The notes below the pieces were generated by a model. It was given only the letters and a program-made list of their open reading frames with translations, was not told where the DNA came from and made no database searches. A stretch of 64,000 nucleotides of DNA from Actinomycetota bacterium (lineage in GTDB: Bacteria > Actinomycetota > Thermoleophilia > Gaiellales > F1-60-MAGs149). The stretch is taken from assembly GCA_009885805.1 (NCBI GenBank), contig VFJZ01000009.1, forward strand, positions 1 to 64,000, written 5' to 3'. Below, one piece after another: positions 47,864-61,770 of this stretch; the stretch's first letter is position 1, and every line of letters starts with the position of its first letter. Position numbers and translations under genes: made by a program.

Positions 47864-48553
47864 ATGGCCGAGCGCATCCTGATCATCGAGGACGAGGCGA
47901 ACATCGCCTCCTTCGTGAAGCTCTACCTGGAGAAGGCGGGCTTCGCCGTGGAGCGTGCCGCAACCGGCACCGACGGCGTCGCGCGGGCGCTCGCGTCCTC
48001 ACCGGTCCTGATCCTGCTCGACCTGAACCTGCCCGACATCGACGGGCTCGAGGTCTGCCGGCGGATCCGCGCCACCTCCCAGGTGCCGATCCTGATGCTG
48101 ACCGCGCGTGACGACGACATCGACAAGATCGTCGGGCTCGAGGTCGGCGCCGACGACTACGTCACGAAGCCGTTCAATCCGCGCGAACTCGTCGCGCGCA
48201 TCAAGACGATCCTGCGGCGGACGGCGGCGCCTGCGCCGGGCGGCGAACGCGGCCCGTTGGTGCTCGGCACGGTCAAGATCGATGCAGCGCGACGGGAGGT
48301 GACGGTCGCCGGCCGCGCCGTGCAGCTGACACCGAAGGAGTTCGACCTCCTGCACGCGCTGATGGAGCACCGCGGCATCGTCCTCACCCGCGACCAGCTG
48401 CTCGAGCGGGTCTGGGGGTACACCTTCGCCGGCGATACGCGGACGGTCGACGTGCACGTGCGGCAGCTCCGGCGCAAGATCGGCGACGAGTGCCCGGTGG
48501 TGACCGTCTGGGGAGTCGGGTACAAGGTATCCGACGATGCTGCGGTCGCTTAG
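47864..48553 (+). CDS. OmpR-family response regulator
   Basis: This 229-residue regulator has a receiver domain (RILIIEDEANIASFVKLYLE) with phospho-acceptor aspartate 53 in LLDLNLPDIDGLEV and conserved K in YVTKPFNPREL. A winged-helix domain ends with GYTFAGDTRTVDVHVRQLRR and GVGYKV. ATG 47864, 7 bases after TAGGAT, is preferred to the ATG at 47855. The histidine kinase gene overlaps by 17 bases. Confidence 0.95.
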   Translation: MAERILIIEDEANIASFVKLYLEKAGFAVERAATGTDGVARALASSPVLILLDLNLPDIDGLEVCRRIRATSQVPILMLTARDDDIDKIVGLEVGADDYVTKPFNPRELVARIKTILRRTAAPAPGGERGPLVLGTVKIDAARREVTVAGRAVQLTPKEFDLLHALMEHRGIVLTRDQLLERVWGYTFAGDTRTVDVHVRQLRRKIGDECPVVTVWGVGYKVSDDAAVA

Positions 48554-49958
48554 AGTCCGACTGGTCGTCTTTTTCGTCGTTCCGGTGCTGGTCGCCGGTG
48601 GCCTTGCGCTCGTCCTCACGACCCGTTCCGTCACCGACTACGAGCGAGCAGCGACGGAGGCGACCCTGCGGCAGCAGGGCCCCGGCGTGGTGCGCCAGTT
48701 CGCCGAGGCGGCGCGCAACGCGTTCGACACGGACGGCGAGCCCGGGCAGATCAACATCCGCACGTTTGTGCGCCAGATCACCGGAGCGGACATCCTCTTC
48801 GTCGCCAACCCGGACTACGCGGAGCCGTATCCCGGCGGCAACGTCGAGACCTGGCCGGCGCTCGACCTCGACTGGGCGCGCCTGGCCCGCGGCGAGCAGC
48901 TCGTCTTCGAGGCCAGGCCCCCCAACCGCGAGCCGTCGCTGGTTGTCGTGTCCGGCGTCTTCCTGACGCGGAACTTCCGACCCGACCCGGACGGGACGAT
49001 CGCCGCCTTCGGCGCGATCCTGCTCGCGCGGCCGCTGGCGACGCTGGCGCCGGAGCAGTCGTTCTGGGCGCGACGGCTGGCGCCCGCGTTCCTCGCTGCC
49101 GGTGCGGCCTCGCTGATCCTCGCGCTCCTGCTCGGCCTACGCATCATCGCGCCGCTGCGGCGGCTGGTGACAGCCGCCGGCGCGATCGCGCGTGGACGCT
49201 ACGACTCCGTCCGGCTCGACCGCAAGCGCGGCGACGAGATCGGGCAGCTGAACCGCGCGTTCGGGGACATGGCCAGCCAGTTGTCCGAAGCGCGCGAGCA
49301 CGAGCGCCTGTTCCTGATGCGGGTCTCGCATGAGCTGCGGACGCCGCTGACCGCAATCCAGGGACACGTCAGCGCGCTCAGCGACGGCATCGCGGAGACC
49401 GCGGAGGAGCAGGCCGACGCCTACGCCGTGATCGCCTCTGAGTCGTCACGGCTGGAGCGGCTGATCCGCGACCTTCTCGACCTCGCCAAGCTCGAGGCCC
49501 GGCGCTTCACCCTGGAGCGTGCCGCCGTCGACGTCGCCGAGGTCGTCCGGCAGTGCCACGCCGTCCACAGCACGCCGGCGCTTCCGGACGGCGTCGACTT
49601 CGTGCTCGGCGCGGTCGAGCCCGGCGTGGTGATCGGCGACGGCGACCGCATCCGGCAGGTGATCGCGAATCTCCTCGAGAACGCGATTCGCTGGACGCCG
49701 CCCGGCGGCGTCGTTCGCCTCTCGACCGTCTCGAACGCGACGCAGGTGATCGTCGAGGTGGCCGATGCCGGTCCGGGCGTGGCGCCGGAACGGCGCGCCG
49801 ACGTGCTCCGTCCATTCTTCTCCGGGGACGCGCACGGCACCGGCCTCGGCCTCGCGATCGCCGCTGAGCTGACGATCGCGATGGGTGGTTCGCTGACGAT
49901 CGGCGACGCACCCGAGGGTGGGGCGCTGTTCTCGTGCGCCCTGCCGCGCATCGTGTAG
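48537..49958 (+). CDS. Sensor histidine kinase
   Basis: This 473-residue kinase has a membrane helix near residues 8-28 (LVVFFVVPVLVAGGLALVLT), an outside sensor of about 150 residues, a second helix (PAFLAAGAASLILALLLGLR), a HAMP linker, the phospho-acceptor histidine 265 in RVSHELRTPLTAI, and an ATPase domain with NLLENAIRWT, DAGPGVAPE and GTGLGLAI. It should phosphorylate the regulator encoded upstream. The signal is unknown. The small secreted protein upstream and pilin genes downstream are possible links. Confidence 0.95.
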   Translation: MLRSLRVRLVVFFVVPVLVAGGLALVLTTRSVTDYERAATEATLRQQGPGVVRQFAEAARNAFDTDGEPGQINIRTFVRQITGADILFVANPDYAEPYPGGNVETWPALDLDWARLARGEQLVFEARPPNREPSLVVVSGVFLTRNFRPDPDGTIAAFGAILLARPLATLAPEQSFWARRLAPAFLAAGAASLILALLLGLRIIAPLRRLVTAAGAIARGRYDSVRLDRKRGDEIGQLNRAFGDMASQLSEAREHERLFLMRVSHELRTPLTAIQGHVSALSDGIAETAEEQADAYAVIASESSRLERLIRDLLDLAKLEARRFTLERAAVDVAEVVRQCHAVHSTPALPDGVDFVLGAVEPGVVIGDGDRIRQVIANLLENAIRWTPPGGVVRLSTVSNATQVIVEVADAGPGVAPERRADVLRPFFSGDAHGTGLGLAIAAELTIAMGGSLTIGDAPEGGALFSCALPRIV

Positions 49959-50062: not shown

Positions 50063-50263
50063 GTGTCCAGTTCCGCCAACCGATCCCGCTCGCGGGGACA
50101 GGGAACCGTCGAGTACATCGGGCTCCTGCTCGCGATCGGGGCGCTGCTCCTCGCCGTCTCCAGCCAGGTCAAGGGTGGCGCGCTCGTCGGGCAGATCGAG
50201 CGCGGCTTCACCGCCGCCGTGCAGAAGGTGGTCGGGAGCGAGGGGACGACGCCGCGGCGCTGA
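50063..50263 (+). CDS. Flp-type small pilin
   Basis: This 66-residue protein carries the classic Flp prepilin signal RGQGTVEY (cleavage G/Q, glutamate +5, tyrosine +6) followed by one hydrophobic helix (IGLLLAIGALLLAVSSQV). It is the best candidate for the major pilin of the Tad system encoded at 56.7-61.0 kb. GTG at 50063 has an AGGAGG site 6 bases upstream. The prepilin peptidase (TadV) is not in the window. Confidence 0.85.
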   Translation: MSSSANRSRSRGQGTVEYIGLLLAIGALLLAVSSQVKGGALVGQIERGFTAAVQKVVGSEGTTPRR

Positions 50264-50274
50264 GGCGACGGCCG

Positions 50275-51036
50275 TCAGCAGCGCTCGCCGGCCAGCAGCT
50301 GGTCGGCGAGCACCCGGCCGTTCCGTACGACGACGACGTGGACAGCGAGCGCGAGCGGCTGAGTGTCGAGCTCGCCGGCCCTCAGCCAGCGCAGCTCGAT
50401 TGGCTCGCAGAGGACGCCGTCCCCTGCCCGGAGTCCCGGCGGTGGCCCGACCTCATCGCCGGGTGCAAGGAGTCCGATCACGGCCAGGCCGAGATCGGCG
50501 CCGCGCAGGATCCGGGCCAGCGGCCGCGTCGCGCGGTTCGCGTCGAGCGACTCCTCGAGCGCCTGACGGCCTGCCTCCGATGCGATCGGCCCGAGGTCGC
50601 GGTCGGTCTCGGGCAACGGCTCGTCGGAGGGTGTCGCGATCACGACCGTCGGCGGCCCGGAGGGGACGGCGAGCAGCCGAACGGTCGGCGAGGGCGCGAC
50701 GCCGACGACGGCGCTGGCGTCTCGCGTCCGCCCGAGGCGGCTTCCGTACCGCGCCAGGATGCGGGTGCTCAGGTAGCGGTCGGCGGCAGCGGCACCGACC
50801 TCCCGCACCAGCAGTCGTCGGGCCGCGAGGAGCGTCGGGCGTCCCGTGTCGACCGCGCGTTCGAGAACGGCGTGCGCGGCCGGTCGCTCGGGGTCGCGGT
50901 CGCCGTCGAGCGCGCGGGCGACGAGCGGCGCGACCCGGACGATGCCGACGACGAGCGCGGCGCAGAGCAGCGCCACGGCGAGCCAGAGGCCGATCGCCTC
51001 GACGCTCGCCTGGCCGCGACTACCAGCGGCAGTCAT
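50275..51036 (-). CDS. TadE-like pseudopilin with large outer domain
   Basis: This 253-residue protein begins with a class III type signal RGQASVEAIG and one helix (LWLAVALLCAALVVGIVRVA). The remaining 200 residues are an outside domain of unknown fold with a C-terminal cysteine pair (GDGVLCEPIELR, LLAGERC). The first residues match the other pilin-like proteins of the window. ATG 51036 lies inside the end of the upstream gene (17-base overlap). Confidence 0.75.
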   Translation of the reverse strand: MTAAGSRGQASVEAIGLWLAVALLCAALVVGIVRVAPLVARALDGDRDPERPAAHAVLERAVDTGRPTLLAARRLLVREVGAAAADRYLSTRILARYGSRLGRTRDASAVVGVAPSPTVRLLAVPSGPPTVVIATPSDEPLPETDRDLGPIASEAGRQALEESLDANRATRPLARILRGADLGLAVIGLLAPGDEVGPPPGLRAGDGVLCEPIELRWLRAGELDTQPLALAVHVVVVRNGRVLADQLLAGERC

Positions 51037-51727
51037 CGCCGGCGATGACGCGGTGGCGCAACACGATCCCTGCACGGACGACGGCGAGCGCCATCGCCGG
51101 GCGCAGCAGCGGCTGCAGGGGCGGCCGCCGTTCCACCCGCTGCCAGACCGGCGCGCACAGCACCACGTCACCGGCGCGGGCGCCGGCCGGCAGGGCCGCG
51201 CCGGGGCGGTCGGCGACCTGCGAGCCACCGGCGGCGATGATCCCGGCGACGCCCGCCACCGGCCCCGCCGCCGCGGCTGCGCCGCCGACGATCTGCAGGA
51301 GCGCGTCGCGCCGCTCGGCGGAGCGGCGAGCGAGACGCAGCAGCGGCAGCACGGCGGCCTCGTCGGCGGGTGTCACGACGTGCGCGACGATGTCGCCGCT
51401 GTGCGGCCGCAGCGGCGCGGTGACGACCGCGGCGGACAGGACCCGCACGGCCAGCTCGTCCAGCCGTCGCTGCGCCTCGCGCGAGCCGAGGCTGTCGGCG
51501 AGCAGCACGGCGACGTCGTCGACCGTCGGCGCCGTTGCGTCACCGATCAGTGCGGCGGCCGCCAGCGACAGGTCGGGCGCAGGCGTCCCGCGATCGCCGT
51601 CGATCGCGCGCGCGATCGTCCCGACGAGCCCGCCGTGCGCCAGGCCGACCGCCAGTGCGAGTGTCAGGGCGACCGCGCAGAGCAGGAGGCCGAGGTGTTC
51701 GACCGTCGCCTGGCCGCGTTCGGACAT
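51020..51727 (-). CDS. Second TadE-like pseudopilin
   Basis: This 235-residue protein starts MSERGQATVEHLG followed by a hydrophobic helix (LLLCAVALTLALAVGLAHGG) and an outside domain that ends VLRHRVIAGDDCRW with GDVVLCAPVWQR, echoing the cysteine layout of its neighbour. The two probably arose by duplication and form a pair. TACGCT ends 6 bases before the ATG, so it heads a leaderless two-gene transcript. Confidence 0.75.
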   Translation of the reverse strand: MSERGQATVEHLGLLLCAVALTLALAVGLAHGGLVGTIARAIDGDRGTPAPDLSLAAAALIGDATAPTVDDVAVLLADSLGSREAQRRLDELAVRVLSAAVVTAPLRPHSGDIVAHVVTPADEAAVLPLLRLARRSAERRDALLQIVGGAAAAAGPVAGVAGIIAAGGSQVADRPGAALPAGARAGDVVLCAPVWQRVERRPPLQPLLRPAMALAVVRAGIVLRHRVIAGDDCRW

Positions 51728-54764: not shown

Positions 54765-55460
54765 ATGGGCGCGAACGTGTTGATCATCGAGGACGAGGCT
54801 GCGATCGTTGACTTCGTCGTCGACAACCTCAGGCAAGACGACCACCAGACCCAGTCGGCGACGAGCGTCCGCGAGGCGCTTGTCCAGCTGCGCCGCACGC
54901 GGCCGGACATCGTGCTGGTCGACATCGGCCTGCCCGATGGCTCCGGTCTCGACATCATCCGCTCGGTGCGCGGCGGCGAGGCCGGCGACCCCGGCGTCGG
55001 CATCATCCTGCTCACGGCCCGAGCGGAGGAGCAGGATCGTCTGCGCGGCTTCGCGCGCGGCGCGGACGATTACGTCACGAAGCCGTTCAGCTATCCGGAA
55101 CTGCTCGCCCGGATCGCAGCGCTCCATGCTCGTCTGGTGCGGTCTACCAGTCACGACGTGATCTGCGTCGGGGCGCTCCGTGTGGACGTGTCGGCGCGGC
55201 GAGCGAGCGTCGACGGTCAGGCGATCGGCCTGCCGGCGAAGGAGTTCGAGCTGCTGGTCGCGCTGGCTCGCGACCCCGAGCGGGTGTTCGAGAAGACCGA
55301 CCTGCTGGAGCGGGTGTGGGGCTACAGGAACTCGCGAACGACCCGGACACTCGATTCGCACGCGTCGAGACTGCGCCGCCGGCTCGAGGACGCCTCGCCG
55401 GGCAGTCGCTTCATCATCAACCGCTGGGGCGTCGGGTACGCCCTGGTGGCGGGGGTGTGA
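54765..55460 (+). CDS. OmpR-family response regulator, head of Tad operon
   Basis: This 231-residue regulator has a receiver domain (NVLIIEDEAAIVDFVVDNLR) with phospho-acceptor aspartate 53 in VDIGLPDGSGLDI, the YVTKPFSYPELLARI lysine, and a winged helix ending WGYRNSRTTRTLDSHASRLR. It is the first gene of a tightly packed string that continues through the kinase and the Tad genes. A TACGGT box at 54671 would give a leader of about 80 bases. Confidence 0.94.
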   Translation: MGANVLIIEDEAAIVDFVVDNLRQDDHQTQSATSVREALVQLRRTRPDIVLVDIGLPDGSGLDIIRSVRGGEAGDPGVGIILLTARAEEQDRLRGFARGADDYVTKPFSYPELLARIAALHARLVRSTSHDVICVGALRVDVSARRASVDGQAIGLPAKEFELLVALARDPERVFEKTDLLERVWGYRNSRTTRTLDSHASRLRRRLEDASPGSRFIINRWGVGYALVAGV

Positions 55461-55461
55461 C

Positions 55462-56751
55462 GTGCGCGGCGTGCTGGCGCGGCGCCTGGTCGTGGCCGTC
55501 GCCGCGGTTGCCGTCACGATCTCGGCTGCGTTCGGCGCGTTCGTCGTACTCCCGGTCAACGACCTCGTTGACCGCGGCCACGCCGCCGCCGTCGCCGACC
55601 GCGCCGACCTGACCACCGCGCTGGCGCGGGGTGGCGTCGCGCCGACCGGCGATGCGGTGATCCTCGCCGCGCCCTCAGCGGCCGGGAGCGCGGGCGACTC
55701 GCCGGTCGACTGGCTCCACGTCGACGACCCGACCTGGCGCCGCGACGTGCACCGCGGCCGCCTGGCGCAGTCGGTTCGCGCGCTCGGCGACGGACGCCTC
55801 CTGGTCATCAGCGACGAGCGGGACGGCGCGATCGAGCGCCGCGAACGGGTCGGTCTGGTCGCCGCACTCCTCGTCGTCCTGGCCGCGACGATGGGCTGGG
55901 CGCTGTGGGCCGGAGGGCTCCACGCGCGGCGCCTCGGGCGAGTCGCGATGACGGCGCGGCGGATCGCCGACGGCGACCTCGGCGCACGCTCGGCACTGAG
56001 CGGTGCCGACGAGGTTGCCCGACTGGGCGCGGACGTCGATCGGATGGCGGTCCGGCTCGACGCTCTCGAGAAGGCGCGGGCCGAGTTCGTCGCCCGCATC
56101 TCCCACGACCTGCGCACGCCGCTGACCGTGATCAAGGGGTACGCGTACACCCTGGCGCGCCGCGCGCAACCCGACGATCCGTCGCTCCGCCGCCTCGCCG
56201 CGATCTCCCGGGAGACCGATCGCCTGGCCGCGCTCGTCGACGACCTTCTGACGCTGTCCCAGGCGCGGGCCGGGGGCCTACGGATTGCCCGCGAACCCTT
56301 TGCCGCTGCCGACCTGCTCGCCGAGATCCTGGAGCGGGTCGGGCCACTTGCGGCGGAGCGCGGTGTCCGCACCGTCGCGGCGGAGACCGAGGTGGTGATC
56401 GACGGCGACCGTCGGCGTCTGGCGCAGGTCCTGACGAACCTTGCCGTCAACGCCGTGAAGGCGACGCCGACCGGCGGCACCGTCACGCTCGGCGCCGATC
56501 TGGACGACGCCGGCGAGGTGGTGCTGGCGGTCGACGACGACGGCCCAGGCATCGATGCCGACCAGCTGCCGCGACTCCTGCGCCCGTTCGCGTCCGGACA
56601 GGCCGCCGGCACGGGGCTCGGGCTCGCGATCGTCACCGAACTCGTCGCCCTGCACGACGGCAGTCTCGCGCTCGATCCGCGGCCGCTCGGTGGCACCCGC
56701 GCGCGGGTCACGCTCCGGCACGCCGTCGCGGTGCCGGCGGCCCGACCGTGA
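55462..56751 (+). CDS. Sensor histidine kinase of the Tad operon
   Basis: This 429-residue kinase has two membrane helices (VVAVAAVAVTISAAFGAFVV and VGLVAALLVVLAATMGWALW) enclosing a sensor of about 110 residues. A HAMP domain, histidine 215 in RISHDLRTPLTVI and an ATPase domain (NLAVNAVKAT, DDDGPGIDAD, GTGLGLAIV) follow. GTG at 55462 starts 1 base after the regulator stop. The stop overlaps the cpaB start (GTGA), so sensing and pilus assembly are translated as one unit. Confidence 0.94.
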   Translation: MRGVLARRLVVAVAAVAVTISAAFGAFVVLPVNDLVDRGHAAAVADRADLTTALARGGVAPTGDAVILAAPSAAGSAGDSPVDWLHVDDPTWRRDVHRGRLAQSVRALGDGRLLVISDERDGAIERRERVGLVAALLVVLAATMGWALWAGGLHARRLGRVAMTARRIADGDLGARSALSGADEVARLGADVDRMAVRLDALEKARAEFVARISHDLRTPLTVIKGYAYTLARRAQPDDPSLRRLAAISRETDRLAALVDDLLTLSQARAGGLRIAREPFAAADLLAEILERVGPLAAERGVRTVAAETEVVIDGDRRRLAQVLTNLAVNAVKATPTGGTVTLGADLDDAGEVVLAVDDDGPGIDADQLPRLLRPFASGQAAGTGLGLAIVTELVALHDGSLALDPRPLGGTRARVTLRHAVAVPAARP

Positions 56752-57335
56752 GACGGCGCGCGCTCCTCATCGTCGCCGCCGGGCTGATGATTGCGGCGGT
56801 CATCGCCGGCCTGCGGCCAGGTGCCGACGCGGCGCCCGGCGCGGACGCCGTTCGGGTGCTGGTCGCCACCTCCGCCATTCCGGCCGGCCGGCCGATCGAT
56901 CCCGCCCTGCTCGCCGTCGTCCTCGTACCTGCGCAGATCGCGCCGGAGGGCGCCCTGACGGAGCCTGACCAGGCGGCGTTTCGCTCGCCGGCCGTCCGGC
57001 TGCCGGCCGGCATGCCGTTGTACGACGCCCTGCTGGCGCGCGGCGCCGGCGTCGCCTCGCTGGCGGCGGACGAGCGGGCCGTGGGCGTCCGCGTCGACGA
57101 CGTGACCGGACTACCAGGGTTCCTGGATGTCGGCGCCAGGGTCGACGTTCTCGTCGGCTCCGGCAGCGACCGGCTCGCGATCGAGTCAGCGGGCGTCCTC
57201 GGACGCCCCCGTCGGAGCGCCGACGGCGGCTGGGCGGTCGCTCTGCGGCTGCCGGCCGCTCTCGCGACCGCGGTTGCCGACGCGCAATCGGCGGGCGCCG
57301 AGGTGCGTCTCCTCGCCCGCGGGAGCGGCTCGTGA
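56748..57335 (+). CDS. CpaB/RcpC-like SAF-domain protein
   Basis: This 195-residue protein has an N-terminal membrane helix (RALLIVAAGLMIAAVIAGL) and a SAF domain (RVLVATSAIPAGRPIDPALL), followed by the CpaB-type region GVRVDDVTGLPGFLDVGARV. CpaB proteins bind the wall or envelope and help pilus assembly. Together with the next four genes this defines a Tad apparatus. The GTG start overlaps the kinase stop. Confidence 0.85.
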   Translation: MRRRALLIVAAGLMIAAVIAGLRPGADAAPGADAVRVLVATSAIPAGRPIDPALLAVVLVPAQIAPEGALTEPDQAAFRSPAVRLPAGMPLYDALLARGAGVASLAADERAVGVRVDDVTGLPGFLDVGARVDVLVGSGSDRLAIESAGVLGRPRRSADGGWAVALRLPAALATAVADAQSAGAEVRLLARGSGS

Positions 57336-58345
57336 CCGTGGGGCCGCTCCTGGTCGCGCTGACCGGCGGACAGCCGCGGGATCGCGCGACGTTCGACGAG
57401 ATCCTCGCCTCGGCGGGCGATCTCGCCGTGGCGACCGAGACCGATGCCGACGTGCTCGTGGTGGCGGATGACACCGGCTGCTCGGCGCTCGACCGCTGCC
57501 GTGCGGCGGACCGGCCGTGCGTCGTGCTGCTCGAGCAGGCGACGCTCGCGACCGTCACCGAGGCGATGCGGGCCGGCGCCCGCGGTGCCGTCGCGCGCGA
57601 TCCGCTGGAGCCGTTCGGCCTGCTCAACGCGATTCGCGATGCCGCCGCCTTTCGTCGGGCGCGGCTCGACCAGGGCGCTGCACCCGGGCGTCTGCTGGTC
57701 GTCTCCGGTGCCCGCGGCGGCTGCGGTACCTCCACCGTCGCGCTGGCCGTTGCGCGCGCGCTGAGCGGCGCCGTCGCGCTACTCGACCTCGACCTGGCAG
57801 GCGGATCGCTGGGCCCGATGCTGGGGCTGCCGGGCGATCCTGCGCTCGCCGGCCTCGCCGCCGAGACGTCCGGCGCGCGCGCCTTCGAGCGTCTGGCCGT
57901 GGACGTCGGTCCGATCCGGGTCGTGCCTGCGCCACCGCGGCCCGATCTGGCCTGGATCGTCCGGCCGGGGCTCTGTGCCGACCTCGCGCGGGCGGCGCGC
58001 AACGCCTGCGCGACCGTCGTCGCCGACATCGGTCGCGCTGCCGGCCCGGCGCTCGAGGTCGTCGCGGACGCGTCGCTGATCATCGTCGCGACGAGCCCGA
58101 CGCGGATCGCGCTCGGTGCAGCACACCGACATGCCAGCTTCCTGCGTGGACTGACCGGCGCACGCTGCGATGTCCACCTCGTCGCCACGCCCGTCCGGCT
58201 GCGGGACGAACCGATCCTGCGGCTCGCGGCGATGGTCGACGGCATCGAAGTCGTCGGCAGGCTTCCCCGTCTGACGTCCGCCGGCGGCTTCGCGCCGCGG
58301 TCGCGGCGGCAGCTGGAGCCGGCGCTGATCGGAGCGTCCAGATGA
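57332..58345 (+). CDS. TadZ/CpaE-like ATPase
   Basis: This 337-residue protein has an N-terminal receiver-like domain without the phospho-acceptor pattern and a C-terminal MinD-like ATPase. The deviant Walker A reads SGARGGCGTSTVALAVARAL, and LLDLDLAGGSLGPMLGLPGD is the following switch. TadZ/CpaE localises the Tad machine in the cell. The GTG start overlaps the cpaB stop by 4 bases. Confidence 0.88.
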   Translation: MTVGPLLVALTGGQPRDRATFDEILASAGDLAVATETDADVLVVADDTGCSALDRCRAADRPCVVLLEQATLATVTEAMRAGARGAVARDPLEPFGLLNAIRDAAAFRRARLDQGAAPGRLLVVSGARGGCGTSTVALAVARALSGAVALLDLDLAGGSLGPMLGLPGDPALAGLAAETSGARAFERLAVDVGPIRVVPAPPRPDLAWIVRPGLCADLARAARNACATVVADIGRAAGPALEVVADASLIIVATSPTRIALGAAHRHASFLRGLTGARCDVHLVATPVRLRDEPILRLAAMVDGIEVVGRLPRLTSAGGFAPRSRRQLEPALIGASR

Positions 58346-59295
58346 TCGCGCTCGCCGCCGGCCCACTGGCGCCGCTGTTCGACGACCCGCGCGTCACCGA
58401 GATCCTCGTCAACGGACCGACGGTCGTCTACGCCGAGGTGGGTGGCCGCCTCCAGCGCTCTGACATCGCGTTCCGCGACGCGGCCGACCTCCGTCAGACC
58501 ATCGCGCGGCTCGTCGGGCTCTGCGGTCGCCGGGTCGATGACGCCAATCCGCTCGTCGACGCGCGGCTGCCGGACGGTTCGCGGGTGAACGCCGTGCTCC
58601 CGCCGCTCGCCATTGACGGCCCGCTGCTGACCGTCCGGCGCTTCGGGTCGCGGCGCCTGACCATGGACGACCTGGTCGCGCTCGGCTCGGTGACCCAGGC
58701 ACAGGCGCTCCTCCTGCGGGACGTGATCGTCGGACGTCGCAACGTGGTCATCTCCGGCGGCACGTCGTCGGGAAAGACGACGCTGCTCGCGGCGATGGCC
58801 GCGTACGTCGACCCGGCCGAGCGGATCGTCACCGTCGAGGACGCCGCCGAACTCGTGTTGCCGGTGCCGCACGTGGCACGGCTGGAGGCCCGTCCCGCGA
58901 GCGTGGAGGGGCGCGGCGGCATCGACGTCCGCGCGCTCGTCCGCAACGCCTTGCGGATGCGGCCCGATCGTCTCGTCGTCGGCGAGGTGCGCGGCGGTGA
59001 AGCGCTCGATCTGCTGCTCGCACTCAACACCGGTCACGACGGGTCGCTCGCTACGGTGCACGCGAACGGCCCGGCGGACGCGCTGCGCCGCCTCGAGACA
59101 ATGGCGTTGATGGCCGGTGTCGATCTGCCGCACCGCGCCGTCCGCGAGTCGATCGCCGGCGCGATCCACGCCGTCGTGCACGTCGATCGGCAGGCCGATG
59201 GTCAGCGCGCTGTCAGCGCCATCGTCGCCGTCAGCCGCGACGGCGACGGGTGGCAGGTGACCGACCTGCCGTCCGCGGCCGGCGGTGCGGCGTGA
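58342..59295 (+). CDS. tadA: TadA/CpaF-type secretion ATPase
   Basis: This 317-residue ATPase is a short TadA. TEILVNGPTVVYAEVGGRLQ is the N-domain, ISGGTSSGKTTLLAAMAAYV the Walker A (residues 137 on), TVEDAAELVLP and HVARLEARPASVEGRGGIDV the Asp and His boxes, and RPDRLVVGEVRGGEALDLLL the Walker B. It powers pilus extension. The long linker found in many CpaF proteins before the core is missing, so it is shorter than usual (about 400-500 residues). ATG 58342 overlaps the upstream stop (ATGA). Confidence 0.93.
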   Translation: MIALAAGPLAPLFDDPRVTEILVNGPTVVYAEVGGRLQRSDIAFRDAADLRQTIARLVGLCGRRVDDANPLVDARLPDGSRVNAVLPPLAIDGPLLTVRRFGSRRLTMDDLVALGSVTQAQALLLRDVIVGRRNVVISGGTSSGKTTLLAAMAAYVDPAERIVTVEDAAELVLPVPHVARLEARPASVEGRGGIDVRALVRNALRMRPDRLVVGEVRGGEALDLLLALNTGHDGSLATVHANGPADALRRLETMALMAGVDLPHRAVRESIAGAIHAVVHVDRQADGQRAVSAIVAVSRDGDGWQVTDLPSAAGGAA

Positions 59296-59861
59296 TCGCC
59301 GTGCTGCGTCGAGGCCCGAGCACGAACGACCTGCTGGCAGCGCAGTTGCCCGACCTCGCCCGTGCCCTCGCCCGGGCTTACGCGGCCGGCCTCCCGCTCG
59401 CGACCGCGTGCGAACGGGCGGCGGACGCCCTGGAGGAGCCGGCGGCCGGAGTACTCCGCAGCGGCGCCGTCGCCGCGGCGCGCGGGCGGCCGGCGGCAGA
59501 GGTGCTGACGCCGCTCGTCGCCGTCGAAGGCGGCGCCCTCGTCCGCGCCGCCGTCGCGGTCTGCGACGAGGTGGGCGGCGACCTCGTGCGGGCGCTCGAG
59601 GCCGTCGCGAAGGCGTTGCAGCAGCGGGAACGGCTGCGCGGCGAGATCGCGGTCGCGACGGCGCAGGCACGCTTCGCCGCGCGCGTCGTGCCGATCGTGC
59701 CCGTCGCTGCGCTCGGCCTGCTCGCTGTCCTCAGCCCCACCGCGCTGCGCCCGCTGCTGACCACGCCCGCCGGCTGGCTGGTGCTGGCCGCCAGCGCGGC
59801 GCTCGATCTGCTGGCCCTCGTCGTCCTCCGCCACATCGAACGAGGCGTGACCTCCGCGTGA
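59292..59861 (+). CDS. TadB-like membrane platform protein
   Basis: The protein has 189 residues, shorter than usual for TadB. A T2SF-type helical domain (LARALARAYAAGLPLATACE, VAVCDEVGGDLVRALEAVAK) is followed by two C-terminal membrane helices (VVPIVPVAALGLLAVLSPTA, WLVLAASAALDLLALVVL). The N-terminal pair of membrane helices of full TadB is missing. It should form the inner membrane platform with TadC. Both ends overlap neighbours by 4 bases. Confidence 0.85.
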   Translation: MIAVLRRGPSTNDLLAAQLPDLARALARAYAAGLPLATACERAADALEEPAAGVLRSGAVAAARGRPAAEVLTPLVAVEGGALVRAAVAVCDEVGGDLVRALEAVAKALQQRERLRGEIAVATAQARFAARVVPIVPVAALGLLAVLSPTALRPLLTTPAGWLVLAASAALDLLALVVLRHIERGVTSA

Positions 59862-60397
59862 CGACGGCGCTTCTCCTCGCCGGCGCGGTCGCCGCCGTGC
59901 TCGCAGCGGTCCCGGCGGTGGCGGGAGGGCGTGACGGCGCGACCTCGTCCCGCAATCGCGCCCGCCTCGTCCGCGATGCGCTTCCCGACGCGCTCGACCT
60001 CCTGGCCGCGGCGCTTGACGGGGGCGCGTCCGTCGAGCGCGGGCTCGAGGCCGTCGGCGGCTACGTGCCCGATCCGCTCGGGGCGACGCTGCGGGCCGCT
60101 GCCCTGGGCGCCGGCGGTGCCCGGCCGGCCGTCACGCTCCGCGCGGAGCCCGACCTGAGGGCGACCGCCGCCCTGCTGGCCGCGTCCGACGACCTCGGCG
60201 TGCCGCTGGCGGAGGCGCTGCGAGATCTCGCCAGCGACGAGCGGGAACGTCAGTCCCGCACCGTCCGTCTGCGTGCGGCGGCGGCGGGCCCACGGATGAC
60301 GCTGGTCGTCGGCGGCCTGCTGGCGCCGGCTGCACTGCTGCTCGTCGTCGGCGCCGAGGTCCTGGCGGTGTTCGAGACCGTCGGGAGCCTCCCGTGA
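59858..60397 (+). CDS. TadC-like membrane platform protein
   Basis: This 179-residue protein has an N-terminal helix (ALLLAGAVAAVLAAVPAVAG), a T2SF domain (LPDALDLLAAALDGGASVER, ASDDLGVPLAEALRDLASDE) and a C-terminal helix (MTLVVGGLLAPAALLLVVGA). With TadB it should anchor the ATPase. It is truncated relative to typical TadC (about 300 residues). GTG 59858 overlaps the tadB stop. Confidence 0.85.
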   Translation: MTTALLLAGAVAAVLAAVPAVAGGRDGATSSRNRARLVRDALPDALDLLAAALDGGASVERGLEAVGGYVPDPLGATLRAAALGAGGARPAVTLRAEPDLRATAALLAASDDLGVPLAEALRDLASDERERQSRTVRLRAAAAGPRMTLVVGGLLAPAALLLVVGAEVLAVFETVGSLP

Positions 60398-61032
60398 GGC
60401 AGGCCCGCGGCCAGGCCGCCGTCGAGTCGGTGCTCGTCGCCGTCGTCGTTGCGGTCTGCGGCCTCGGCGTTGTGGTCGCGGCGCGCGCCGCGAGCCCCGA
60501 TCCGAGTCGCGCCCTGACGGCAGCGGCGACCGCCGCCGGCCCCGTCGGCGCGATCGGCTCGGACCTCGCCCTCGACGGTCTGCCGACCGTCGCCGGTGCG
60601 CGCGTCGCCGCGATCGCCGAGCGCCTCGTCCCCCTCGACATCACGGAGACGTCCGCCGCCGGAGCGATCTGGATCCCGCGGTTCACGGACGGCAACACAG
60701 AGGCGTGGTGCGCCGACTTCGCCTCGTGGGTCCTCCGCCATGCCGGACACCCGGTGAGCGGCGGCAGCTCCGGCGGCTGGCGGATCGCCGGCGCCGCCGC
60801 TCTCCGCGACTGGTTCGCGATGCGTGGGCGGTACGCGCCGCGTTCCGTGGCTCGCCCGATCCCCGGCGACATCGTCTACTTCAACCACAGCCACATCGGC
60901 ATCGTCGTCGCCGTTCGCGGCGACGTGCTGGAGACGATCGAGGGCAACAGTTCGGACGCCGTGCGTCGTCGCATCTACGCCGGTTGGCGCTCGATCGCGG
61001 ACATCGACGGCTTCGGGCGGCCCGGAACCTGA
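60394..61032 (+). CDS. Pilin-type signal fused to CHAP peptidoglycan hydrolase
   Basis: This 212-residue protein begins MRQARGQAAVESVLV, the same RGQ-x2-VE class III signal as the three pilin-like proteins at 50-52 kb, followed by one helix (VAVVVAVCGLGVVVAARAAS). The C-terminal 120 residues are a CHAP amidase/endopeptidase: NTEAWCADFASWVLRHAGHP with cysteine 106 and IVYFNHSHIGIVVAVRGDVL with histidine 167, then EGNSSD. It is the last gene of the Tad operon, overlapping tadC by 4 bases. It may cut peptidoglycan to let the pilus pass, or be the pilus cargo. I know of no described pilin-CHAP fusion. Confidence 0.87.
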   Translation: MRQARGQAAVESVLVAVVVAVCGLGVVVAARAASPDPSRALTAAATAAGPVGAIGSDLALDGLPTVAGARVAAIAERLVPLDITETSAAGAIWIPRFTDGNTEAWCADFASWVLRHAGHPVSGGSSGGWRIAGAAALRDWFAMRGRYAPRSVARPIPGDIVYFNHSHIGIVVAVRGDVLETIEGNSSDAVRRRIYAGWRSIADIDGFGRPGT

Positions 61033-61056: not shown

Positions 61057-61103
61057 GCGTAAAGGAGGCAAGACCGTCCGACGACAACACTTGCCTCCTA
61101 CGC
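61057..61103. terminator. Bidirectional hairpin after the Tad operon
   Basis: GCGTA-AA-GGAGGCAAG (61057-61072) pairs with CTTGCCTCC-TACGC (61090-61103) over 14 base pairs with a two-base bulge, closing a 17-base loop. The right arm overlaps the stop codon of the convergent RES remnant, so the hairpin can end transcripts from both sides. Confidence 0.6.
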
Positions 61104-61463
61104 CGGGTTGGAGCGGGTTGTGCGCGCCAGGATCTCGAGCGTGGATGGGACGCGCAGTCGTTCCGCGAAGACGACCAGCACGTCGCCGACGCCGGTCGCC
61201 GACGGCGCCATGATCGCTTCGAATCCCTGGACATGCGCTGCGTGTCCAATGCGTCGAGTGGTGCTCACGTCGTCGGAAACCAGGTCGTCTTCCGAGATCT
61301 GCAACGCGTGCCGCGTGTCGGGTGTCCGGAGATCGACCGTGTCGGAAAGGTCGACGCGAAGCGTCAGCCAGCGAGGGAGGAAGCTCTCCACGGTCAGCCC
61401 CTGGCGCTCAGCGAGGCGGGCTGCGCCGCTGCTGCTGGACGAAGGCACCTCCACCCATGGCAT
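61098..61463 (-). pseudogene. RES-domain toxin, N-terminally truncated
   Basis: The 121-residue frame contains only the C-terminal half of a RES toxin: LPRWLTLRVDLSDTVDLRTP, RHALQISEDDLVSDDVSTTR, then HAAHVQGFEAIMAPSATGVG and DVLVVFAERLRVPSTLEIL. RES toxins degrade NAD+. The N-terminal half with the R-x-G-G-R-F-N motif that binds NAD is missing, and the first 25 residues are read from overlapping antitoxin sequence. It is therefore probably inactive. The antitoxin gene overlaps upstream. Confidence 0.65.
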
Positions 61464-61770
61464 CGATGGCGCCGAGAACCGAGCGGAACTGACGCGCTCG
61501 AAGAAGGTCGATGGGCTTCTCGTGGTCGAGGGACGGATTCGGGCCGTAGAGCCAGTCGTGCGCGGCGTCCGGGCGCAGCACTCGCGCTAGGCGTTCGAGG
61601 ACGGCGAGAACTTCAAGAAGGCGCTCTCGGTTGACTCCGCGCGGCGTCGTCTCCTGCGCGAGCCATCGGCTCACGGTGCGCGGGCTGGTGGCGAGGGCGC
61701 GCGCGAGATCAGCCTGGTCGAGGTCGGTTTGCTCGACGGCCGAGCCAATGCGTACAAGCAGCGTGGTCAA
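61408..61770 (-). CDS. Xre/MbcA/ParS-type antitoxin
   Basis: The 120-residue protein has an N-terminal helix-turn-helix (DLDQADLARALATSPRTVSR) and the MbcA/ParS toxin-binding domain (DAAHDWLYGPNPSLDHEKPI, LLRARQFRSVLGAIDAMGGG). It should neutralise a RES toxin and repress its own promoter. About 15 extra residues follow the family end AFV, as expected from the deletion into the RES gene. The TTG start has an AGGAG site. The 90 bases upstream are unusually AT-rich for this window. Confidence 0.75.
   Translation of the reverse strand: MTTLLVRIGSAVEQTDLDQADLARALATSPRTVSRWLAQETTPRGVNRERLLEVLAVLERLARVLRPDAAHDWLYGPNPSLDHEKPIDLLRARQFRSVLGAIDAMGGGAFVQQQRRSPPR

Follow-up and report, generated by a model that had tools for sequence, protein, structure and literature searches.

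The DNA analysed here (the window), with a G+C content of 72%, covers the opening 64 kb of contig C30 in a draft genome of 3.56 Mb. At 54765-61032, on the forward strand, it carries a tad operon in the order response regulator, histidine kinase, CpaB, TadZ, TadA, TadB, TadC and a 212-aa protein that joins a prepilin helix to a CHAP domain. This operon with its fusion gene, first noted in a sequence-only reading of the window, is real, and the gene coordinates and reading frames given there were correct. The 4-base overlaps given there hold for the six junctions from the histidine kinase through the fusion gene, with the correction that the regulator does not overlap the kinase: it ends at 55460, leaving 1 base before the GTG start of the kinase at 55462.

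The response regulator (54765-55460, +), a gene call kept in the readable related loci, opens the operon and is followed by a histidine kinase with HAMP, HisKA and HATPase_c domains (55462-56751, +). TadZ and CpaB/RcpC of the Tad pilus are both present: the CpaB/RcpC-like protein (56748-57335, +) scored 24.4 bits for SAF (cut-off 21) and was borderline on the CpaB model TIGR03177 (70.8 bits, just below the cut-off of 71), and the TadZ/CpaE-like ATPase of the ParA family (57332-58345, +) matched ParA at 30.3 bits and its closest named model, TIGR03815, weakly at 28.4 bits. The TadA/TadB/TadC set is made up of a 317-aa TadA ATPase (58342-59295, +; T2SSE 188.5 bits, TIGR03819 341.9 bits from model position 51) and two proteins with one T2SSF domain (PF00482) each, TadB (59292-59861, +; 38.4 bits) and TadC (59858-60397, +; 45.7 bits). 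The fusion gene (60394-61032, +), assigned from a PF05257 match, an alignment and an AlphaFold2 (AF2) model, likewise starts with GTG. The genes called at the locus did not include a secretin; an outer-membrane secretin is not expected in a monoderm. Directly 3' of the operon and in opposite orientation, positions 61098-61770 (-) hold a RES-domain gene (match just below cut-off) and an Xre/MbcA/ParS-type antitoxin gene, a pair that was not seen at the related loci examined.

TadA, TadB and TadC had all been taken to be shortened, suggesting a minimal machine. Measured against a sister family of the same order, TadA (317 versus 380-387 aa) and TadC (179 versus 288-290 aa, the latter from two intact sister loci) are indeed shorter, with TadA lacking about 65 N-terminal residues that its sister-family counterpart has, whereas TadB is not (189 versus 169-197 aa). 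The notion of a minimal machine was nevertheless the weak part of that claim, because compact tad operons are already known, such as tadZABC-flp-tadEF of M. tuberculosis (PMC9531140).

Other pilus genes in the window and the genome

The machine is not devoid of ordinary pilins: a gene for a Flp-type pilin and genes for two class III proteins, conserved in related loci, lie 3-11 kb upstream of the operon. A second response regulator (47864-48553, +) and a second histidine kinase (48537-49958, +), both gene calls, precede a 66-aa Flp-type prepilin (SRGQGTVEYIGLLLAIG...; 50063-50263, +), and this order is repeated in loci L265 and L266 and inverted in L269, all three of which hold orthologues of the prepilin of 65-69 aa. 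The prepilin was assigned by motif and size, its PF04021 match being weak and below cut-off, and it is the likely major pilin. Next to it on the opposite strand are a 253-aa class III protein (SRGQASVEAIG...; 50275-51036, -), a candidate TadE/F-like minor pilin, and a 235-aa class III protein (ERGQATVEHLG...; 51020-51727, -), a further minor pilin candidate. Neither had a Pfam match, and the pair is conserved beside the Flp gene, with paired counterparts in L044, L046, L265 and L269; both are likely to be unrecognised minor pilins. Since a separate Flp-type prepilin and these two class III proteins lie upstream, the fusion is unlikely to be the major pilin.

Only one A24 prepilin peptidase (59.5 bits) is encoded in the genome, and its gene lies elsewhere. 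One such peptidase was found in 12 of the 16 genomes of the same Gaiellales family, and the other four, all drafts, gave no match. A second tad locus of the genome, on contig C21, is of the ordinary type: it holds two Flp genes and a TadE-like gene, and its TadA, TadB and TadC are long. Small-genome relatives hold the present TadA alone (at E 1e-60), and cpaB was not among the called genes of their readable loci.

The prepilin helix-CHAP protein

The fusion protein comprises a leader (residues 1-6), a helix (7-33), a linker extending to approximately residue 62 and a CHAP domain (63-210). Its class III prepilin signal, judged by motif, reads G6/QAAVE11 and runs into the hydrophobic helix. The Pfam pilin models (Flp, TadE, class III signal) did not match the protein, which gave only CHAP and a weak DUF2272, and it is therefore termed prepilin-like rather than a Flp pilin. 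Where a pilin joined to a CHAP domain had been proposed, the prepilin signal and helix stand; the protein has no pilin fold, only the helix.

Conservation was assessed in 13 aligned orthologues, which were 41-50% identical to the window protein. Q7, E11, C106, H167, E183 and N185 were invariant, and mean column identity was 87% over residues 6-11, 37% over the linker (34-62) and 79% over residues 99-212. Type IV prepilins are recognised by G(-1) and E(+5) (PMC9531140); the fusion has glycine at -1 (position 6) in 12 of the 13 sequences and alanine in one, and glutamate at +5 in all 13. In addition, the leader was positive in every aligned orthologue and the first 16 residues past E11 were uncharged, on which basis an N-in/C-out topology is predicted. 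The proposed RGQAAVE signal was also borne out more broadly, as RGQ-x2-(V/T/I)E was kept in all orthologues with an intact N-terminus, contrary to what an ordinary anchor would have left.

Residues 99-185 matched the CHAP profile PF05257 at 39.6 bits (curated cut-off 26), and C106, H167, E183 and N185 form the putative active site, of which the cysteine and the histidine had been correctly named in the sequence-only reading. The AF2 model, built on a 13-row alignment, had a pLDDT of 80.5, with residues 2-33 helical, a linker of poor prediction quality (42-55) and a confident domain from approximately residue 61; residues 90-212, for which a structure prediction had been suggested, adopted a confident CHAP fold within this model of the full fusion. 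Foldseek placed the CHAP lysin Ly7917 first among solved structures (E 3.6e-4), followed by Acd24020, an autolysin of C. difficile (E 4e-3). The fold thus matches CHAP and NlpC/P60 enzymes at modest E-values and with low query-normalised TM-scores (0.36-0.41), to which the lack of a helix and linker in the target structures contributes. A sequence profile searched against solved structures gave nothing significant.

A search for class III signals in front of CHAP domains, of the kind that the sequence-only reading had proposed, was run as a regular expression for the signal plus a hydrophobic stretch. It was positive in 12 of 158 CHAP reading frames, all of them orthologues of the fusion gene, and in none of the other 146 from genomes and viral contigs. 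A chance motif or an ordinary anchor was ruled out by these 146 negative frames and by the invariant Q7 and E11 in the 13 sequences. In 10 of 14 genomes the fusion was the sole Pfam CHAP protein.

Distribution of the fusion and the sister locus

Among 61 relatives searched, the same Gaiellales family yielded orthologues that were full-length or nearly so (E 2e-42 or better) in 14 of its 16 genomes, and matches outside the family were weaker and mainly to the CHAP domain. The two family genomes without the fusion are drafts of 70-71% completeness, in one of which the contig ends inside tadA. The fusion gene lay directly 3' of tadC in all 13 readable loci; homologues outside tad loci, which would have spoken against the sequence-only reading, were not found among them. 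When profile searches were extended to 399 genomes of the class and 397 of the phylum, family members scored E 6e-84 or better and all others 1e-27 or weaker, chiefly over the CHAP domain, and no class III signal was present in the called N-termini of the non-family matches (eight loci with long N-terminal coverage together with the loci from the phylum search).

A wider distribution was rejected on these searches, full-length matches being confined to the Gaiellales family among approximately 400 class and 400 phylum genomes. A viral origin was likewise rejected, as viral contigs gave CHAP-domain matches only, without a class III signal. Furthermore, an assembly chimera was excluded, because the same gene order is repeated in independent MAGs. 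Copies in public collections came mostly from lake or river MAGs titled Actinobacteria, Thermoleophilia or Gaiellales. Two lake MAG records with the Gaiellales locus (L069 and L071) are titled Bifidobacterium breve, a label with which their sequence disagrees and which is apparently a mislabelling.

In the sister family the locus again comprises regulator, kinase, CpaB, TadZ, TadA, TadB and TadC with unchanged flanks (including the same two genes beside the regulator), and its TadA is 63-66% identical to the present one. Besides the longer TadA and TadC, it differs in the gene that follows tadC: three of the four sister loci readable past this point (L254, L256 and L257) end in a plain class III pilin of ~70 aa, beginning RGQATIEYVLL... 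or ERAQATIEYTALV..., and none was seen in the fourth. These plain pilins (L256 2928-3146; after tadC in L254 and L257) share a terminal P-C-[LV]-C-P motif. An additional gene of 237-256 aa lies between the kinase and cpaB in the sister family (L254 4121-4834, L255 3722-4471, L257 4533-5303), and the one copy scanned matched no Pfam family above cut-off. A third family, in which tadB and tadC are fused, has tadA and a Flp-type gene but no counterpart of the gene that follows tadC. In a TadA tree, for which midpoint rooting only was used, the copies of the present family grouped with full support.

Because the sister locus has a plain class III pilin after tadC, this place is a pilin position, and the hydrolase was most simply added there by fusion, while the sister family kept the unfused state. 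The simplest history would then be that the pilin after tadC acquired a CHAP domain in a single event in the ancestor of the family. A fused hydrolase is not generally needed for such a machine, since the sister family and the second tad locus of the present genome do without one.

A putative wall-opening pilus subunit

Taking the gene, its conserved residues and its position together, we consider it probable (roughly 58%) that the fusion is a minor pilin or pseudopilin of the Tad system, exposing a peptidoglycan hydrolase with which the cell opens its own wall to the pilus. The protein would be inserted into the membrane N-in and C-out, and the prepilin peptidase would cleave it after G6, giving Q at +1 and E at +5. 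TadA, TadB and TadC would then accept it as a subunit of a pilus or pseudopilus, presumably early and in low copy, because by its arrangement the gene shares a transcript with the machine genes rather than with the gene of the Flp-type pilin. Either among the first subunits to emerge or at the base, the CHAP domain would cleave the peptides in the peptidoglycan of its own cell, allowing the fibre to pass the thick actinobacterial wall. The more specific proposal of an enzymatically active minor pilin, possibly sited at the tip, which the machine pushes out first to cut the murein of its own cell, may be given even odds.

The main rival to the minor-pilin reading is an enzyme that never polymerises: a membrane-anchored wall hydrolase, processed or not, that sits at the base of the machine and whose helix serves only to target it to TadA, TadB and TadC. 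Such an enzyme would account for the retention of the helix alone and for the flexible linker, and in M. luteus the class III TadE/F proteins were absent from sheared pili and have been proposed to form a wall-spanning base (PMC4322843). An ordinary anchor, however, requires neither the invariant Glu at +5 nor the Gln at +1, and the sister family has a small pilin at that very position; a base-anchored hydrolase is thus the less likely account, at perhaps one chance in four. The expected active-site Cys, His, Glu and Asn, invariant in 13 sequences, argue against a CHAP-fold domain that serves as a non-catalytic wall anchor or adhesin, a role with which the moderate fold match would agree but which we regard as very improbable.

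It is also doubtful, and more so than a base-anchored enzyme, that the fusion is an effector whose CHAP domain is shown to other cells by the pilus or pseudopilus for predation, sibling lysis or DNA capture. CHAP enzymes can be lysins, as the Ly7917 match illustrates, and tad genes are required for transformation in M. luteus (PMC4322843). A Tad-like Kil apparatus is required for contact killing by Myxococcus, with local loss of the prey wall, although the toxic part there is not the pilins themselves (PMC8460266). Against an effector, the gene shares its operon with the machine, apart from the Flp gene, and is kept in all readable family loci without the variation expected of effectors. Related loci had no conserved immunity-like gene downstream of the fusion, and the weapon suggested in the sequence-only reading gained nothing from our searches. 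Since such a conserved immunity-like neighbour is lacking and the gene accompanies the machine throughout, a role in opening the wall of the same cell is preferred to one in attack on others.

According to a 2025 paper on the structure of RcpC, a peptidoglycan hydrolase had yet to be reported for Tad pili, and a borrowed one was suggested (PMC12307814). Our own partial coverage of the literature found no account joining a Tad pilus or prepilin with a CHAP domain, and none of Tad pili with a lytic transglycosylase, in line with the sequence-only reading, to which no description of such a fusion was known. The Tad machine is known and the predicted catalytic pilin is new; similar fusions could exist in other phyla. 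The pilus of this Gaiellales family may carry its own wall-opening enzyme, which, if true, would be the first peptidoglycan hydrolase linked to any Tad pilus, and the question of how a Tad pilus crosses the peptidoglycan layer becomes testable with one gene and one cysteine.

With the Tad/Flp (type IVc) pili of P. aeruginosa (rcp-tad) and A. actinomycetemcomitans, the present system shares CpaB/RcpC, TadZ, TadA/B/C, class III prepilins and an A24 peptidase; it differs from them in the putative hydrolase fused to the prepilin helix and in having no secretin gene called at the locus. The loci of M. tuberculosis (Rv3660c-Rv3654c) and M. luteus (tad-1 and tad-2) likewise have TadA/B/C, a pilin gene after tadC and TadE/F-like proteins, but their pilins and TadE/F are described without enzymatic domains, and the present operon is headed by a regulator-kinase pair. 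Ly7917 and Acd24020, as CHAP and NlpC/P60 wall hydrolases, have the fold and the Cys/His active-site pattern in common with the fusion, whereas these lysins and autolysins are without a prepilin signal. FlgJ of flagella is an enzyme dedicated to an appendage, with its wall-cutting domain inside a structural part; the fusion is alike in this built-in domain, while machine, enzyme family and export route differ. A flagellar locus with genes resembling flgK and flgL encodes, flanked by flagellin-like genes, a CHAP protein without a pilin signal (L054 3764-4555), possibly the FlgJ-type wall enzyme of those flagella; proteins resembling it are widespread in the class.
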